Notes under the pieces: model-generated
Databases searched by the model: none
The model's input: the letters and a program-made list of their open reading frames with translations, nothing else
What the model was told of the DNA's origin: nothing
Translations under genes and position numbers: made by a program
In this document: positions 13,232 through 34,412 of the stretch, piece by piece
How positions within the stretch are numbered: the stretch's first letter is position 1
Layout of the letters: each line of letters opens with the position of its first letter
Source of the DNA: Acidimicrobiia bacterium
GTDB taxonomy: Bacteria > Actinomycetota > Acidimicrobiia > Acidimicrobiales > AC-14
NCBI GenBank assembly: GCA_023264995.1
Contig: JAHFUR010000011.1
Location: forward strand, 1-64,000
Length of the DNA: 64,000 bases
Direction: 5' to 3'

Positions 13232-15970
13232 TCAGACGTAGCCCGGGAACTGGGTGTCGGCGGCGCGCACCTGGAGGGAGGCGTCCACGTCGGCCGCCGT
13301 GATCGTTCGCAGCTCGTCGTCGGTCGGAGCCTCGACGGTGCTCAGCCGCCCGGCTTGGGCGGCGAGCAACCGCTCGAACAGGTTCCGGACCGTGCGCCCA
13401 TTGGCGAAGGTGCGGTCCCGTGGCAGGGCGGCGAGGTACTCGCCGATCCGCATCGATGCCGCGGGCTCGGCGCGCGCGCCGGACCGCCGGCAGAACAGCT
13501 CGAAGATGGCCACCAGCTCGTCGGCGTCGTAGTCGGGGAAGGCCAGCGTGCGGGCGAAGCGGCTGGCGAAGCCGGGGTTGGTGTCGAGGAACGCTGCCAT
13601 CTCCCGGGGGTACCCGGCGACGATGACCACCAGCTCGTCGCGGTGGTCCTCCATCAGCTTCAGGAGGATGGCAACCGCCTCGTGGCCGTAGTCGCTCCCG
13701 TACCCCTGCACCAGGCTGTACGCCTCGTCGATGAAGAGCACGCCCCCGATGGCCCGCTCGACCTGCGCGGCGACTCGCGGCGCGGTCTGGCCGATGTAGC
13801 GGGCCACCAGGTCGGCGCGGGTGACCTCGACCAACTGCCCGGTGGCGAGGAGCCCGTTGGCAGCCATGGCCCGGGCCAGGAGCCGGGCGATCGTGGTCTT
13901 GGCCGTGCCCGGGTTCCCGGTGAAGACCATGTGACGGGTGGGGCTGGGCACCCGCAGGCCGGCACGAGCCCGCGGACCGGCCAACACGGCCTCGGCCACC
14001 ATCCGGGCCAGCTCCTGCTTCACCTCGGCCAGGCCGATCAGCTGGTCCAGCTCGGCCATGACGTCGGCGGACGCCGGTGCGGAGCCGGTGGACAGCCTGG
14101 GCAGCCCCCCGGTCCGGATGTCGGCAGCGTCGAGCCGCAACCCGGCCCCTGCTCGGCGAGCGTGCTCGGCCTGGGCCCGGTCGAGGAGGGCCTCGGCGAC
14201 CCGGGCGTTACGGAAGCTGCCCGCCGGCCGGGCCGAGCCGAGCACCTCGCGGGCCGCCGCCTCGCCATCGGCGTCGACCTCGAAGCCTCGGTCCCGGGCC
14301 AGGCGCACGAACAGGCGGCAGAGGGCATCCGGGCCGAGGTCGGCCACGCGAGCGGTGCGGAAGCGCCGAGCCAGGTCGGGGTTGGCCGCCGCCAAGGACC
14401 CGGCACCGTCGGCCGTACAGGTGGCGACCAGGGTGACGCCACAGGTCGTGTCCGACAGCCGGCGACGGATCTCCTCGAGGGCGGTCGGGCCGCCGTCGGC
14501 GATCACGAGGCGGTCGATCCCTTCCACGAGGAGCACGCCGTTGCCGGCGGCGTCGAAGGCGTCGGCGACCTTCACGAGGGGGTTCAGCTGCCAGCTCGCC
14601 GGGCCGACCAGATCGGTGGCGGTCATACGCCGCACGAGACCGGAGCCGACCCCTACGCCGGCCAACGCCCGGGCGTAGGCCCGGCTGGCCAGAGGCTGCC
14701 CGCTGCCCTCAGGCCCGGTGATGAGCAGGTGAGGACCGTGTCGGCCGGCCATGGCGCCGGCGATCCGCACGCAGGCGCGCAGCTCGCCGAGGAGGTCGGG
14801 CTGCTCGGTGACCTCGGCGAGCGGGTCGCTGTCGACCGTGGGTGCCGCGGCACCGGCGCCCGGGCCACCGACCGGCCGCGGCGTCGCCTGCCGGGGGGGC
14901 CGGGGGTAGGCGACGAGCGAGCGGGCCTGTTCGGCCAGGCGGTCGCCGACCCACGTCATGTTGTTGGCGACGTTCCACGTGTCGGCACCCGACGCTCCGA
15001 GGGCGATGGCCACGCTGAGCCGGCACCGGGTGTCGACGAGCGCCCGACCAAGGTCGGACCGGCCCCGGAGCAGGAGCCGGCCGGACTCGCCCAGCTGGAC
15101 GATGTCACGGGCCGCGAAGGTCGTCGGGTCGGCATCGGGGAGGCATGCCGTCACCCGTAGGGCCCGTCCCGGCTCGACCCGCTCGAGGGCGGCTTCGAGG
15201 AGCGCAGGGACAGCGGTGAAGCCCAAGCGCTTCAGCTGCACGGCCAGCTCGACGTCGACATCGTCGGTGGGCTCGCGCAACGACTCAGCGGCACCGGCGC
15301 TCAGCGCGTCGAGCCGGCGCAGGCACCACTCGATGTACCCGGCCAAGCCGAAGAGCTCGGGGACGAGGTCGAGCGTGGCGGCGTCGGCGGCGGCCGCCCA
15401 GAGCCGGGCCAGGCCGGCGCCGTCGACCGACCGGTCGAACGTCGCCGCTCCGTCCCGCTGGGCGATGGCCAGGTCGGCCAGCGCCAGCGCCTTGGCTCGG
15501 AGCGGCGGCACCGTCGCCCAGGCTCGGCACTGCCCCACGAACACGTCGACGGCCGCGGCCCGCAGGTCGCGGGCCCGGCCGGCGCCCCAGAAGAGGTGCG
15601 TGTCGGGCGGGCGGAACGGGGTCTGGCGGACCACGCAACCCGGGCCGTCGTTGTCGTAGGGAGCCTCCCGCCAGGGGTCGAGGGCGTGCAGGAGCCGGGG
15701 CGGCACCGCGCCGGCGACGATCGACCCGACGCCGGCCAGCAGGAAGAACACGTTCTGGAGGTCGGCTGCAGCCGCGGCGCCGGTCCCCTGCCACCCGCTC
15801 GGGGCACGCACCTCCCGGAGGCCTGCCGGCAGGTCGTCGAGGGTGGAGAGGAGGGTCGACTGGACGGCTCCGATCTCGCCCTCCGACGCCGGCCACGGGT
15901 CCGCCCACAGCGCATCGAAGGTGGCCTCGGCCGACCGGTAGGCGTCAGGAATTCCGAGAGGCTCCTCCAC
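13232..15970 (-). CDS. large AAA+ ATPase, CbbX/EccA-like C-terminal module
   Basis: 912 aa from the GTG at 15970. The N-terminal ~430 residues are helical and unrecognised. A first AAA module follows with a degenerate Walker A (TGPEGSGQP, Lys absent) and VLLVEGIDRLV. The second, C-terminal module is canonical and of the CbbX/EccA/SpoVK type: FTGNPGTAKTTIARLLARA, GGVLFIDEAYSLVQ, VIVAGYPREM and NPGFASRF, with the sensor-2 region FANGRTVRNLFERLL. CbbX members remodel inhibited RuBisCO; EccA members act in ESX secretion. With RuBisCO ~19 kb away and no ESX genes here, neither role can be chosen. The frame stays open upstream only as a shadow of the P450 gene. Confidence 0.78.
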   Translation of the reverse strand: MEEPLGIPDAYRSAEATFDALWADPWPASEGEIGAVQSTLLSTLDDLPAGLREVRAPSGWQGTGAAAAADLQNVFFLLAGVGSIVAGAVPPRLLHALDPWREAPYDNDGPGCVVRQTPFRPPDTHLFWGAGRARDLRAAAVDVFVGQCRAWATVPPLRAKALALADLAIAQRDGAATFDRSVDGAGLARLWAAAADAATLDLVPELFGLAGYIEWCLRRLDALSAGAAESLREPTDDVDVELAVQLKRLGFTAVPALLEAALERVEPGRALRVTACLPDADPTTFAARDIVQLGESGRLLLRGRSDLGRALVDTRCRLSVAIALGASGADTWNVANNMTWVGDRLAEQARSLVAYPRPPRQATPRPVGGPGAGAAAPTVDSDPLAEVTEQPDLLGELRACVRIAGAMAGRHGPHLLITGPEGSGQPLASRAYARALAGVGVGSGLVRRMTATDLVGPASWQLNPLVKVADAFDAAGNGVLLVEGIDRLVIADGGPTALEEIRRRLSDTTCGVTLVATCTADGAGSLAAANPDLARRFRTARVADLGPDALCRLFVRLARDRGFEVDADGEAAAREVLGSARPAGSFRNARVAEALLDRAQAEHARRAGAGLRLDAADIRTGGLPRLSTGSAPASADVMAELDQLIGLAEVKQELARMVAEAVLAGPRARAGLRVPSPTRHMVFTGNPGTAKTTIARLLARAMAANGLLATGQLVEVTRADLVARYIGQTAPRVAAQVERAIGGVLFIDEAYSLVQGYGSDYGHEAVAILLKLMEDHRDELVVIVAGYPREMAAFLDTNPGFASRFARTLAFPDYDADELVAIFELFCRRSGARAEPAASMRIGEYLAALPRDRTFANGRTVRNLFERLLAAQAGRLSTVEAPTDDELRTITAADVDASLQVRAADTQFPGYV

Positions 15971-27746: not shown

Positions 27747-28745
27747 TTAGGCGCTGTCCCCGTTGCCGCGCGACCCCGAGAGGCGGGAAATGTCGACCGC
27801 CACACCCAGCGCCCCTGCCGCTCGCGCCGCTTCGACGTGACCAGGTCCCAGGCCCCCTTGGGCGTAGACGGGCAAGGGGCTGGCCGCCACCAGCGCCTGC
27901 AGTCCGTCCCAGCCAAATGCCTGGTCTCCAGGATGCGCAGCGGTGGGTAGCACTGGCGACAGGAGGGCGACGTCGGCACCCAGTGCGCTAGCGCGCTCGA
28001 GGTCTCGTGCGTTGTGAGCAGACACCGCCCACAGGCCCGTCGGCGGCCGCTCTATCAGACCGGCCAGCGCGCCGGCGGAGCTGTGAAGCCCGCAGGCACC
28101 AGCCTGGCGTGCCTCCAGCGCTGTCCCAGAGAGGAGCACGCGCAGCCCGGTCCCCCGCCGGAGCTGGCACAGCCGACGGGTGAGCTGGACACGCTGACCA
28201 GGTGCGAGATCCAGTGCTCGCACGATCAAGAGGCGCAGGCCGCCGGCTGCCAACCACGGAATGCTCGCCAGCAGCTCTTCGGGTGCGCCCGGCGCGTGGT
28301 CCACCCGGGCGACGCCCACCAGCTCAGGGAGCCCCAACGTGGCAATAGCGAGCTCGTTGCTCGGCAGCAGTGGCCCGACCGTCGGACGGGCGGGCTCCAC
28401 CCATGCCACCTGCTGGCCTTCCCTCCCCTTCGGCTCGCCCGACCACCGGCGCACGTTGAACCAGTGCAGCCGCACCCGCTTGGTCGGGAAGTCGTGCTCG
28501 TAGACCCGCCACGGCGCCAGCTCGAGCGCGTGGACACCGACCTCCTCAAGCAGCTCGCGGGCTGCGGCCTGGACCGGGCTCTCGCCGGGCTCGACCTGGC
28601 CCCCGGGCAGCTCCCAGAAGCCGGCCGCGTCCTTGCCGGGCTTGCGCTGCGCGAGCAACACGCGCCCATCGGGCGCGCGGAGGACGCCGACCGCCACGTC
28701 AACCACCGGACGACCGAGGAGGGGCAACCGGCGGGCGGGCGGCAT
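27747..28745 (-). CDS. Nudix hydrolase (MutT-like) fused to a ThiE-like domain
   Basis: 332 aa. Residues 1-140 are a MutT-type Nudix domain: GFWELPGGQVEPGES and AARELLEEVGV form the Nudix box, and the KPGKDAAGFWELPGG context is that of 8-oxo-dGTP diphosphatase. Residues ~160-325 are a thiamine-phosphate-synthase-like barrel (GLHSSAGALAGLI, WAVSAHNARDLERASALGAD, VYAQGGLGPGHVEAARAAGA). This fusion is usual in gammaproteobacteria and unexpected in an actinobacterium. Its ATG overlaps the end of the 83-aa gene by one base, placing it in the carboxysome unit. Confidence 0.85.
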   Translation of the reverse strand: MPPARRLPLLGRPVVDVAVGVLRAPDGRVLLAQRKPGKDAAGFWELPGGQVEPGESPVQAAARELLEEVGVHALELAPWRVYEHDFPTKRVRLHWFNVRRWSGEPKGREGQQVAWVEPARPTVGPLLPSNELAIATLGLPELVGVARVDHAPGAPEELLASIPWLAAGGLRLLIVRALDLAPGQRVQLTRRLCQLRRGTGLRVLLSGTALEARQAGACGLHSSAGALAGLIERPPTGLWAVSAHNARDLERASALGADVALLSPVLPTAAHPGDQAFGWDGLQALVAASPLPVYAQGGLGPGHVEAARAAGALGVAVDISRLSGSRGNGDSA

Positions 28746-28996
28746 CAGTCCGGCCAGACGGGTAGCGGGTACAGCGCACTGGGTCGCCGTCGCAACTGCG
28801 TCGTCGCCCGGTGCTCAGGGTCTACCGGCGCGGTCTCGGTCGCAGGGGCCGCGACCCCACCGGCATCCCCGGTCCGGGCATCCTGGGCGAGAGGCTCGCC
28901 CTCGGCGCCGAGCTGTTGGGCGCCATCCTTCGCCTCCGCCGAGGCCTCGGGCCGCTGGCTCGCTGGGGAGGTGGTGCGGCGTCTGGCGGGTGTCAT
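28745..28996 (-). CDS. small Ala/Pro/Glu-rich protein of the carboxysome operon, unknown
   Basis: 83 aa, not recognised. ATG at 28996, one base after the acRAF stop, with GGAGG about ten bases upstream; its last base is the first of the next start. The N-terminal part is basic (MTPARRRTTSPASQR), the middle is Ala/Glu/Gln/Pro-rich and looks disordered, and the C-terminus is a compact basic-aromatic tail, RRRPSALYPLPVWPD. Position between acRAF and Nudix-ThiE and strict coupling indicate it is translated with carboxysome genes. It could be a disordered adaptor, but this is only inference. Confidence 0.65.
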   Translation of the reverse strand: MTPARRRTTSPASQRPEASAEAKDGAQQLGAEGEPLAQDARTGDAGGVAAPATETAPVDPEHRATTQLRRRPSALYPLPVWPD

Positions 28997-28997
28997 G

Positions 28998-29273
28998 TCA
29001 GGTTACCTCCAACCTAGCGATTGCCTCGGCGCGCGTAGCGAAGTCTCGTGCCTCCGCGTCGACAGCCCCTCCATCCGGGCCATGCACCGAGACGGTGACA
29101 TGGGTCCGGGTGAAGCTCAGATCCGGATAGAGCCCGGTCTCCTTCGACAGGCTTGCGAGCCGGTCGAGGAAGCCTGCTGTTTCGGAGTAGTCGGCGAACT
29201 CGAAGCGGCGGTACAACGACGGTGGTCGCTCGACCGCTTTCCAGCCTTCCGGCAATCGGGATTCTGTCGTCAC
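28998..29273 (-). CDS. acRAF: alpha-carboxysome RuBisCO assembly factor (pterin dehydratase-like)
   Basis: 91 aa, GTG start at 29273 preceded by GAGGAG. Pterin-4a-carbinolamine-dehydratase fold: LPEGWKAVERPPSLYRRFEF, FADYSETAGFLDRLASLSKE, and THVTVSVHGPDGGAVDAEARDFA. The dehydratase active-site motif (HHP..) is not intact: the corresponding region reads LYPDLSFTRTHV, as expected for acRAF rather than a true PCD. In other alpha-carboxysome operons this protein assists RuBisCO folding or assembly. Located after csoS1 as the first gene past the hairpin spacer. Confidence 0.85.
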   Translation of the reverse strand: MTTESRLPEGWKAVERPPSLYRRFEFADYSETAGFLDRLASLSKETGLYPDLSFTRTHVTVSVHGPDGGAVDAEARDFATRAEAIARLEVT

Positions 29274-29413: not shown

Positions 29414-29743
29414 TTAGACCGGCGCGACCTGGGTCTCGCGGGGGCTGTCGGGAAGGATCGCCTCGACCTCGCTGTGGGGCCGGGCGATGATGTGGGCGGC
29501 GGCCAGGCCGTCGCCCACGCGCTCGCACGCGTCAGCACCGGCACGGACTGCCGCGTTGACGGCACCCGTCTCACCACGCACCAGCACGGTGACGTAGCCG
29601 CCGCCGACGAACTGCCGGCCGATCAGCCGCACCTCTGACGCCTTGGTCATGGCGTCGGCAGCCTCGATCGCGGGGACGAGGCCCCGGGTCTCGATCATGC
29701 CCAGGGCAATCCCCGGAATGTCAGAACTTCCATTGTTGGCCAT
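29414..29743 (-). CDS. csoS1: carboxysome hexameric shell protein CsoS1 (BMC domain)
   Basis: 109 aa single BMC domain. IALGMIETRGLVPAIEAADAM, EVRLIGRQFVGGGYVTVLVRG (pore loop region) and GAVNAAVRAGADACER are diagnostic, and HIIARPHSEVEAILP closes the domain. It forms the hexagonal tiles of the shell facets. ATG at 29743 with GAGGAAAG upstream. It is the only BMC-H gene in the window, where many alpha-carboxysome operons carry two or three paralogues, so others may be elsewhere in the genome. Confidence 0.96.
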   Translation of the reverse strand: MANNGSSDIPGIALGMIETRGLVPAIEAADAMTKASEVRLIGRQFVGGGYVTVLVRGETGAVNAAVRAGADACERVGDGLAAAHIIARPHSEVEAILPDSPRETQVAPV

Positions 29744-29805: not shown

Positions 29806-30066
29806 TCAGCCGCGCCATCGCTCCTCGCTCCAGTGGTCGATGATCCCGCCAATGGTGAGGTCGGTGGTGATGCTGTAATCGCCGGCGGCATGGCGGGCCG
29901 CCGAGGTGCTGATGGTGATGACGAAGTCGCCGGGTCTTGTGCCAACCGGGTCCAGCGCCACTTCGAGTTCGCCGCCTTCGTCCTCGACCACTCGTAGCGA
30001 CTTGCTCTGGAGCGTGGGGGTTCGACTGGTGGCGACGAGGTCCCCCACAACGCGCTGGATGTTCAT
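29806..30066 (-). CDS. csoS4B: carboxysome pentameric vertex protein CsoS4B
   Basis: 86 aa EutN/CcmL-type protein: MNIQRVVGDLVATSRTPTL, LKSLRVV-like strand, ALDPVGTRPGDFVITISTSA and TDLTIGGIIDHW. Pentamers cap the vertices of the shell. The ATG overlaps the csoS4A stop (ATGA). Upstream frame extension is only the shadow of csoS4A. Confidence 0.94.
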   Translation of the reverse strand: MNIQRVVGDLVATSRTPTLQSKSLRVVEDEGGELEVALDPVGTRPGDFVITISTSAARHAAGDYSITTDLTIGGIIDHWSEERWRG

Positions 30067-30410
30067 CGCCCCGCCCCTCGGCTTCGAGATGGAGCGACCG
30101 GCTCCACGACCGACAGCTCCGGCTTCGCAGCGGGCGCCTCCCCTGGGGTGGCTTGTCCCGGGGCGTCCTCGTCCCAGTAGTCGATGATGCCGACGATGGT
30201 CAGGTCGCTCGGGTAGTCCTTGTGGCCAGCGGCTTCGCGCGCCGCCGAACTCCCACACGCGATCACCCAGTCGCCGGGCTTGCAGCCGACGGGGTCAACC
30301 GCCACCTGCTTGCTTCCCTTGCGGTCCACAACGACCAGCAGCCGCTGGAGCTCGAGGCCTTGGATGCGAGCTGTTGCCACCAGCGTGCCTTCGACACAGA
30401 AGATCTTCAT
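30063..30410 (-). CDS. csoS4A: carboxysome pentameric vertex protein CsoS4A
   Basis: 115 aa EutN/CcmL-type protein: MKIFCVEGTLVATARIQGLE, AVDPVGCKPGDWVIACGSSA and DLTIVGIIDYWDE. It has an extra ~35-residue Ala/Pro/Glu-rich C-terminal tail (APGQATPGEAPAAKPEL) absent from CsoS4B and from typical CsoS4A. The ATG overlaps the csoSCA stop, and the stop overlaps the csoS4B start. Confidence 0.94.
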   Translation of the reverse strand: MKIFCVEGTLVATARIQGLELQRLLVVVDRKGSKQVAVDPVGCKPGDWVIACGSSAAREAAGHKDYPSDLTIVGIIDYWDEDAPGQATPGEAPAAKPELSVVEPVAPSRSRGAGR

Positions 30411-31954
30411 CGTGCCTCCTCCCGTCGCTCGGCCTCGACCAGCTCCAGCCGCGACTGGCCCCGTGCTCGCACGAACCCTTGGACGACGAGGCCGTCGGTG
30501 CCGGCCCGACCTGCGTACCGGGTCTCGATGGCGGCGGTGAGGCGGCGAGCACGTGCCTGCGCGCTGGCGCAGGCGCCGGGGATGCGCTCGTCGTAGGCGA
30601 CGTGCACGAGCACCGGCACCGCAAGCCCGTGCGGCGCATTCGTCCTGCGGAGGATGTTGAAGCCGACGTCGAGGTCGACGGCACCTTCCTCGAGCGTACG
30701 CATCTGGGCCTGGAAGGCAAGGTTGCGCAGCTGCACGTCGTCGATCGCGTCGCCGGCCACGAGCAGCTTCTCGGTGTGGCCGGGATCGGCGTACATGCCG
30801 CCGATCCAGCCCAGAACTGCGTCGACTTGACCGATGTTGTTCTTCAGTAGGTAGCCACAGAGCCAGCGCATGCCCTCGGTGGCGGCGTCGGCCGCGTCCA
30901 CGCCCGTGGCGTCGGCGACCGCTTGGCGGATGTACTCCTTGGCCGCCTCACGCTCGAGGCTCGCAGTCTGCTCGTAGAGCGCGGCGCTGGAAACGAAGCG
31001 GCTCACGTCGGTCTTCCCAGCGGCGTCGGGAACGTGGACGCGGATGGCGTCGGTGTCAGTGTCCACCCCGACGAGCAGGGTGGCCACGCTCGCCCCACAG
31101 CACTGGGTGGACTCGACGGCCCCCTCGAACTGCTGGAGCAGCGCCAGCAGGGCAGTGGCAGCGCGCGTCTCGTCACTGCCGTGGGCGGCACAGCCTTGAT
31201 GGCGGGGGTCGGCGCTGCTGAAGTGGTAGAGCCCGATCTTCAGGTAGCGGGTGGGCTCGCTGGCGTCGTTCGGACGGCCTTCGCGCCAGCGCCGCAGCTC
31301 CACCGACTCCCAGCGGTGCAGCGCGTCCTCCACGTCGAACATGGCGCCGGCGTAGGCGTCGTGCCACACCACGACCGCAGGCGGCACTCGCAGGATGAAG
31401 TCCACCGCGCCCAGGAGGCGCCCATCGGAGCAGGAGGTGATGTCGACGGCGTGGAACCCGAAGCGCTGGATCAGCACCTCGGCGCTCTCGCCCTCGTCGA
31501 GCAGGGCGGCGAGGTTGCGTTCGAACTCGCGCTCCACCAGGTTGGCGAAGGTCCCGAGCACGCACCGGGCATGGAGGCGGCCGAGGTCCAGCGGTGTGCT
31601 CCAGGACGCCTCGCACTCGCTCGCCGGGATGTCGACCCCGAGTGAGTTGGCCAGCTCGTGCTGCGCAACCTCGGGGAAGCCGTCGTCGAACTGGCGCGGC
31701 GCCAGCCGGCGCAGGACGGGTTGGATCATCTCGAAGGCGGCCTCGATCTCCTCGGCTCGCTGCTTCAGTGCCGCGCTGAGCGCCGGCTCCGCCAGCGGAT
31801 GCCCGCCGGCCGGGGCACCGGACCTGACCGCCCCGTTCGGGGCTGCCCGGCCCGACGGCGCCTTCACCGTCGCCACCGCGACCGGGCGCGGCCACGCAGC
31901 AGCCTCGCCCCATGGCGCGAGCCACCGGCCATCGGGCTGGAGCAGGGACTTCAT
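30407..31954 (-). CDS. csoSCA: carboxysomal carbonic anhydrase CsoSCA
   Basis: 515 aa, the family's usual length. It converts bicarbonate to CO2 inside the carboxysome. Zinc-site region: DITSCSDGRLLGAVDF (Cys, with the Asp-Arg dyad), GCAAHGSDETRAA (His) and VESTQCCGASVATLLVGVDT (Cys). The N-terminal extension of ~60 residues, WLAPWGEAAAWPRP and onward, is low complexity, where a RuBisCO- or CsoS2-binding segment sits in other species. The C-terminal third carries the degenerate second CA-like domain. Overlaps csoS2 and csoS4A by 4 bases each. Confidence 0.95.
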   Translation of the reverse strand: MKSLLQPDGRWLAPWGEAAAWPRPVAVATVKAPSGRAAPNGAVRSGAPAGGHPLAEPALSAALKQRAEEIEAAFEMIQPVLRRLAPRQFDDGFPEVAQHELANSLGVDIPASECEASWSTPLDLGRLHARCVLGTFANLVEREFERNLAALLDEGESAEVLIQRFGFHAVDITSCSDGRLLGAVDFILRVPPAVVVWHDAYAGAMFDVEDALHRWESVELRRWREGRPNDASEPTRYLKIGLYHFSSADPRHQGCAAHGSDETRAATALLALLQQFEGAVESTQCCGASVATLLVGVDTDTDAIRVHVPDAAGKTDVSRFVSSAALYEQTASLEREAAKEYIRQAVADATGVDAADAATEGMRWLCGYLLKNNIGQVDAVLGWIGGMYADPGHTEKLLVAGDAIDDVQLRNLAFQAQMRTLEEGAVDLDVGFNILRRTNAPHGLAVPVLVHVAYDERIPGACASAQARARRLTAAIETRYAGRAGTDGLVVQGFVRARGQSRLELVEAERREEAR

Positions 31955-34259: not shown

Positions 34260-34412
34260 TCAGCCAGCTCCCCCGCGGGAGACGACGAAGGCCGGCGCGC
34301 CCTTCGGCGCCCGGTTGCCCTGGGACGGCTGGCGGCGTCCCTGCATGGAGAAGGCATCCAGGGGCGCGGCCAGACCACCGCTGTCGGCGATCTGGACCAC
34401 GTTCATGTCCAT
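34260..34412 (-). CDS. 50-aa ORF with a CsoS2 N-repeat-like motif
   Basis: Encodes MDMNVVQIADSGGLAAPLDA, then FSMQGRRQPSQGNRAPKGAP and a short tail. GRRQPSQGNRAPKG parallels the CsoS2 repeat RRRQLSQGKQALMG. It starts two bases after the cbbS stop and stops two bases before csoS2; about 88 percent of its codons end in G or C, so it is surely coding. Its tail has a run of five G (CGC GGG GGA): one extra base or a -1 slip there joins it in phase to csoS2, giving a fifth repeat with 58-residue spacing. So it is a stand-alone RuBisCO-binding peptide, a frameshifted csoS2 start, or the product of a sequence error. Confidence 0.7.
   Translation of the reverse strand: MDMNVVQIADSGGLAAPLDAFSMQGRRQPSQGNRAPKGAPAFVVSRGGAG

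Follow-up and report, generated by a model that had tools for sequence, protein, structure and literature searches.

Gene organization of the carboxysome locus

An alpha-carboxysome operon lies on the minus strand of the window (the whole 64,000-nucleotide stretch of Acidimicrobiia DNA that was analysed), with genes in the order cbbL, cbbS, csoS2, csoSCA, csoS4A, csoS4B, csoS1, acRAF, an 83-aa ORF, a Nudix-ThiE fusion gene and then genes that are presumably dabB- and dabA-like, these last names being taken from the known carboxysome neighbourhood. csoSCA (30407-31954), which was recognized by domain search and used as the query for related loci and for tree building, is followed by the shell pentamer genes csoS4A and csoS4B (29806-30410; EutN_CcmL), the shell hexamer gene csoS1 (29414-29743; BMC domain, E 4.6e-25) and the gene for the carboxysomal RuBisCO assembly factor, acRAF (28998-29273; Pterin_4a, E 6.9e-9), whose name rests on its place within the cso operon.

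The 83-aa ORF (28745-28996) runs from an ATG at 28996-28994 to a TGA at 28747-28745, on the minus strand; the plus-strand translation of this interval contains a stop. A preliminary description of this DNA had placed it between acRAF and Nudix-ThiE with one-base junctions and its own GGAGG, which was confirmed from the sequence: a single base (28997) separates the acRAF stop from the ORF, the TGA has one base in common with the ATG of the Nudix-ThiE gene, and the GGAGG, a likely ribosome-binding site, is found at 29006-29010 of the same strand, nine bases before the ATG. Both neighbours were also as claimed, with the Pterin_4a match upstream and Nudix (E 4.2e-22) and TMP-TENI (E 8.2e-21) Pfam matches in the fusion gene directly downstream (27747-28745).

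Three related loci (L025, L026 and L172) have a small ORF of its own between cbbS and csoS2, which bears motifs of the CsoS2 N-terminal type (RRRQLSQGKRAL) and ends like CbbS. Its counterpart in the window (34260-34412, minus strand) is short, at 50 aa, and looks degenerate, and in the related genome G006 this ORF seems continuous with csoS2.

Properties and relatives of the 83-aa protein

No family match was returned when Pfam and NCBIfam were searched with the 83-aa protein. The basic N-terminus (MTPARRR, 28976-28996) and the terminal motif RRRPSALYPLPVWPD noted previously are both present in the translation, and the disorder claimed for the protein is predicted by AlphaFold2 (pTM 0.13, mean pLDDT 60, a sole helix of 4 residues, and coiled coil absent judging from this model alone) and, narrowly, by charge-hydropathy (0.403 against 0.418).

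A similarity search with the ORF in 99 relatives gave matches in G002, of the same genus (E 1.2e-17, 61% identity), and G074, of the same order (E 1.1e-6), each placed between acRAF and Nudix-ThiE. These two matches show the ORF to be more than a chance reading frame. The remaining matches, at E 0.0012 or worse and in several cases interrupted by stops, were rejected as apparent chance similarity among Ala/Pro/Glu-rich sequences. At class level CsoSCA itself was found in 4 of 395 genomes, at order level in 11 of 397 and at family level in 3 of 10, with the window's own genome counted each time; neither CsoSCA nor the ORF was found in G001, of the same genus. Five of the 11 genomes of the order (G000, which is the window's own, G002, G074, G006 and G477) make up the cso lineage of the window, and the ORF is in place in all of them. 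McdA occurs in three of the other six (G040, the Ferrithrix genome G089, and G635, which holds locus L072), G503 (locus L094) carries an orphan McdB, and in G044 and G469 the contig ends before the place in question.

The five lineage proteins are 71-96 aa long, with identity to the window protein down to 44%, and share an MTPA start and a VWPD end around a loose middle; columns 2-13 of the alignment are 66% identical, the middle 51% and the last nine residues 71%. pN/pS across the five is 0.60-0.81 throughout, with 0.77 for the whole protein and 0.69 for its last nine codons, so purifying selection is evident only from the invariant VWPD and the intact frame. VWPD (28748-28759, minus strand) is invariant in all five and in 9 of 9 sequences of a second alignment. 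The residues before it, RRRPSALYPLP in the window, vary, reading LHSER in L038, LHPER in G006 and LGPE in Elioraea. Lack of the frame in relatives, or free variation of the tail, had been named in advance as refuting the preliminary interpretation; what was found is that the frame and VWPD are kept in relatives, whereas the RRRPSALYPLP part, most of the motif as first described, does vary.

Identification as an alpha-McdB

A CsoSCA alignment scanned against genome contigs recovered 66 alpha-carboxysome loci. acRAF was found in 48 of these, and in 47 of the 48 an ORF ending in [VI]WPD lies within 1300 nt downstream; the sole locus that has acRAF and lacks such an ORF is L099, whose contig runs out 99 nt past the ParA gene. 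The 66 loci hold 9048 ORFs of 40 aa or more; the [VI]WPD ending is shared by 48 of them, every one in this place downstream of acRAF. In the 18 loci where acRAF was not matched, the sequence ends no farther than about 1.6 kb from the csoSCA match. Matches ending in TGG were dropped from the pattern searches, TGG not being a stop, a match in G467 was rejected as an unrelated frame, and the start codons of the L050 and L072 proteins were set from context at the coupled start. In 33 of the 48 the gene immediately before the [VI]WPD ORF is of the ParA type, which is the published alpha-McdAB arrangement.

Alpha-McdB has been described as a protein of 51-169 aa in which WPD are three invariant residues, with the consensus R(V/I)WPD, and in Halothiobacillus neapolitanus association with carboxysomes is reported to require the Trp and to need no more than the last 10 residues (Basalla et al. 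2024, PMC11321042). A 2021 review (PMC8262871) lists disorder, biased composition, low hydrophobicity, multivalency and a C-terminal Trp as McdB features. From its VWPD end, its place by acRAF and its predicted disorder, the 83-aa protein, whose length is inside the published range, is by sequence an alpha-McdB, a peripheral carboxysome protein of a described kind. The preliminary view that it is not a known cso gene thus has to be given up, while the search which that description had suggested, for the C-terminal motif beside acRAF in other alpha-carboxysome operons, turned up its [VI]WPD end in nearly every locus that reaches acRAF.

The last nine residues, LYPLPVWPD (28748-28774, minus strand), can be set against the wider consensus L-H-P-x-R-[VI]-W-P-D from column counts over 54 McdBs, in which the W, P and D columns are conditioned on the search pattern [VI]WPD, the evidence for their invariance being the scan of ORFs in the 66 loci. 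Y replaces H in the window protein, and P replaces the R before V, which is retained in G006 (ALHPERVWPD) and G074 (ALHSERVWPD), two lineage members with near-canonical ends. Between proteobacterial McdBs and the window protein, similarity does not extend beyond the tail, the usual situation in this family. This tail had been likened to those of client peptides that bind shells or RuBisCO. What survives of this is that a conserved aromatic tail binds carboxysomes in a studied relative (PMC11321042), such a tail serving to dock an adaptor on the carboxysome; client packing and RuBisCO binding, which have a weak resemblance in their favour, are improbable here. By analogy with Halothiobacillus, the tail would bind the carboxysome here as well, and the csoS1 shell hexamer is a candidate docking surface.

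Search for an McdA partner

The order acRAF-McdA-McdB is found in three Acidimicrobiia loci (L072, G040 and G468, the latter Ferrithrix thermotolerans). In the window lineage the gene upstream of mcdB is acRAF, with no adjacent mcdA. A profile built from 20 McdAs, G468 being outside it, was run on 22 genomes and scored 274-302 bits in four (those of L072, G040, L091 and G468, the last at 287 bits). In the five lineage draft genomes McdA was not found by this profile, all best scores being below 48 bits (42.5, 42.7 and 47.7 in G000, G002 and G074, 47.0 and 46.8 in G006 and G477). ParA matches of the window's own genome by PF13614 do not score like McdA with the McdA profile, and were rejected as such. 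A second McdB was not found either, each of the five genomes having one terminal [VI]WPD with a true stop. As McdA was not found in any of five drafts, each 95-98% complete, an assembly gap is an unlikely cause.

The N-terminal motif of McdA-linked proteins

MSKLEDKLSASIK and MSVKKMGSKLAQGVRQVK exemplify the N-termini of McdBs that have McdA beside them. Within the first 20 residues, 33 of 35 McdA-linked McdBs and 1 of 19 orphans contain the pattern [DSNEK][KR]L...[IVLM], a count that is descriptive because the motif was defined by eye on the same sequences, and for which the Fisher p of 3.5e-11 ignores kinship. The two linked proteins that miss it (L060 and L065) are one flanking letter off, as is the orphan L073. 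The motif is present in all three Acidimicrobiia loci where McdA adjoins McdB; in the window McdB, which has an Arg-rich start with a net charge of +3 in its first 20 residues, this K-L motif was not found. Median N-terminal charge is +3 in orphans and linked proteins alike and does not separate them, so it is the motif, not charge, that accompanies McdA. AlphaFold2 placed a helix at residues 12-22 of the linked L072 McdB and none in the N-terminal part of the window McdB, both models being of low confidence. According to a 2025 preprint (PMC12204374), the first 20 residues of the H. neapolitanus McdB, predicted to be helical, are necessary and sufficient for McdA binding, and K7 is critical. 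The comparison splits McdB into a tail that is kept throughout and an N-terminal motif that occurs almost only with McdA next door. Two orphans, L052 and L073, retain the type 1 N-terminus, so a missing mcdA and a missing motif are not always coupled.

What remains between acRAF and mcdB in L073, at 13709-13927, reads as a piece of mcdA, such as an internal deletion would leave.

Comparison with known McdB proteins

The window McdB resembles alpha-McdB type 1, that of H. neapolitanus and its relatives, in being short and disordered, of low hydrophobicity and with a C-terminal [VI]WPD, and type 1 genes are likewise often encoded in the cso operon after acRAF. It differs from type 1 in that mcdA does not precede it, that its N-terminus shows neither the motif of McdA-linked proteins nor a predicted helix, and that P stands for R before VWPD. 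With type 2, the proteobacterial orphans, it shares a place in the cso operon with no mcdA, and its N-terminus, basic but with the McdA-linked motif not found, may likewise not bind McdA. Type 2 is described in PMC8262871 as the second copy in genomes with a distant mcdA-mcdB pair, without a charged N-terminus, whereas the window McdB is the only McdB found, with no McdA found, an Arg-rich N-terminus and an actinobacterial host. The sources differ as to where the orphan stands, PMC8262871 putting it in the cso operon and a 2026 review (PMC12918739) putting the orphan copy away from the cso locus. Cyanobacterial beta-McdB has a disordered region, a basic N-terminus and a C-terminal Trp like the window protein, but is longer (132-394 aa), oligomeric and with a coiled coil, and has no invariant WPD.

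An orphan alpha-McdB is already known in kind, since orphans have been published for cyanobacteria and proteobacteria. In the literature searched, no description of an orphan McdB was found for Actinobacteriota, although the MacCready 2021 survey may list actinobacterial cases. Among the papers listed, none combined McdA with Acidimicrobiia, and PMC9164163, on atypical carboxysome loci including an actinobacterial one, has no occurrence of McdB. As far as this search shows, the present results extend McdB and the McdA-McdB pair to actinobacterial carboxysomes.

A proposed role for McdB without McdA

If McdA is indeed missing from the window lineage, the known nucleoid gradients cannot operate there. 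We consider it very likely that the 83-aa protein is an alpha-McdB that serves as a disordered adaptor, docks through VWPD and works independently of McdA in this Acidimicrobiia lineage, where it is probably kept for a job at the shell. The VWPD tail would dock it on the alpha-carboxysome as in H. neapolitanus, so that McdB might coat the carboxysome and act alone instead of riding McdA gradients on the nucleoid; the most likely task would be for the disordered chain to prevent clumping of shells, as a coat that holds carboxysomes apart or in solution, or to tune their assembly. In Synechococcus the division defect is reported to be stronger without McdB than without McdA, and an McdA-independent role at carboxysomes, of a nature that the authors leave open, was argued from mutants in that paper, which also notes orphan McdBs in cyanobacteria and proteobacteria (PMC8406218). 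Organisms that bear McdB and seemingly lack McdA would be a natural test bed for this other function, because any McdB activity in them would belong to it.

It is possible to explain the orphan state in other ways. McdB could have switched to another ParA-type ATPase, for example the chromosomal ParA, by means of its basic N-terminus, and the genome does encode ParA-type ATPases, while partner proteins of this ATPase family are said to use N-terminal basic residues (PMC12204374). Weak binding of the window McdB to some ParA-type ATPase is possible. A switch of partner is nevertheless unlikely given an N-terminus with prolines at positions 3 and 11 and neither helix nor K-L motif; non-basic N-terminal residues matter too in H. 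neapolitanus, according to the same preprint, and another actinobacterial orphan, L083, has an acidic N-terminus. That the protein is instead a relic, decaying after mcdA was lost, appears quite improbable, since frame, tight neighbour spacing and VWPD are intact in five of five genomes despite the divergence of their sequences, although the high pN/pS, the spread in length across the five relatives and the mcdA piece retained beside mcdB in L073 are what a relic might be expected to leave.

Published type 2 copies lie in the cso operon with no mcdA beside them, the layout seen here, and lack the charged N-terminus that is predicted to bind McdA (PMC8262871). A distant mcdA-mcdB pair could have been missed by our searches; with neither an McdA match nor a second terminal [VI]WPD in the five nearly complete genomes, this is very unlikely. 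A linker between RuBisCO or other cargo and the shell, in which the tail would bind the shell and the Arg-rich start would hold RuBisCO as the N-terminal repeats of CsoS2 do, was suggested by the resemblance of the RRR start to RRRQLSQG of CsoS2 (shuffle p 0.042 for the window and 0.021 for G477, uncorrected, 14 proteins tested). The resemblance is not seen in the other three lineage members (p 0.33-0.52), AlphaFold2 gave no N-terminal helix, and the linker is the least credible of these readings; a CsoS2-like N-terminus, being a weak resemblance in two of five lineage members, was rejected for the window McdB.

Descent of the operon

A CsoSCA tree with 54 rows groups the five members of the lineage (95/93) and joins them to Elioraea (100/100), apart from the McdA-bearing Acidimicrobiia. 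The Elioraea row L050, which had a very long branch in the first tree, was replaced by L039 and L045 in the rebuilt tree, where the Elioraea branch is still long and its placement carries a warning from the tool. Elioraea has the same acRAF-McdB-Nudix-ThiE order as the window lineage, and this shared order fits transfer of the operon between Elioraea and Acidimicrobiia, which in view of the long, flagged branch is no more than suggested. Labelling rows as orphan or paired requires six changes on this tree, in which losses and gains are indistinguishable; L091 was labelled orphan despite the additional pair in its locus, L099 was labelled paired despite an McdB lying off the contig, and the labels of L039, L045 and L057 were taken from other contigs of their genomes. 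It is doubtful, though conceivable, that alpha-McdB was McdA-independent at its root, that McdA was perhaps never present in the window lineage or Elioraea, and that the motor was inserted between acRAF and McdB in the other lineage, making the shell-docking role of VWPD older than positioning. If this were true, VWPD would mark a site of docking on the shell that serves carboxysome assembly or solubility.

The Nudix-ThiE fusion gene was seen after mcdB in this Acidimicrobiia lineage and in Elioraea, at 27747-28745 of the window, at 9230-10249 of L050, and in L179 and L181.

Other orphan McdBs

Aciditerrimonas (L094) has an orphan McdB and a best McdA-profile score of 48.9 bits, and for the actinobacterial orphan L083 no McdA match at E 1e-8 was found in 1.4 Mb of sequence. 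Best scores in three Elioraea genomes with orphan McdB were 115, 43 and 120 bits. Eight proteobacterial orphan loci were of the Thiothrix-Lamprocystis-Leucothrix kind; seven of their genomes had best scores of 49-116 bits, and the L091 genome a full McdA. With the Elioraea and proteobacterial orphans scoring this low, the combination of an orphan McdB with a genome poor in McdA may not be confined to actinobacteria, and a divergent, distant McdA is possible in those proteobacteria. ParAs of 95-120 bits in Elioraea (G454 and G456), Lamprocystis (G458, two) and Thiothrix (G459 and G460) were the ones whose neighbours were checked; they have no neighbouring [VI]WPD ORF and were not counted as McdA. 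Weaker ParAs, of 65-101 bits, occur in G457, G461, G462, G464, G465 and G467.

L091 (12973-13383 and 16717-16956) nearly reproduces the published type 2 layout: its cso operon includes an orphan McdB, and some 3.3 kb away the opposite strand carries a second set, acRAF-McdA-McdB. Three orphan McdBs are Lys/Ala-rich and histone H1-like, 141-195 aa in length with net charges of +27 to +34 (L047, 13529-13954; L080, 13147-13734; L084, 13148-13657), and the McdA-linked McdB of L061 matches PF07382 (HC2) at E 1.4e-5, below the cut-off of that family. PhaF and AlgP are listed in a table of PMC13052382 as tethering their granules directly to DNA, and by analogy the Lys/Ala-rich McdBs might tether carboxysomes straight to DNA.
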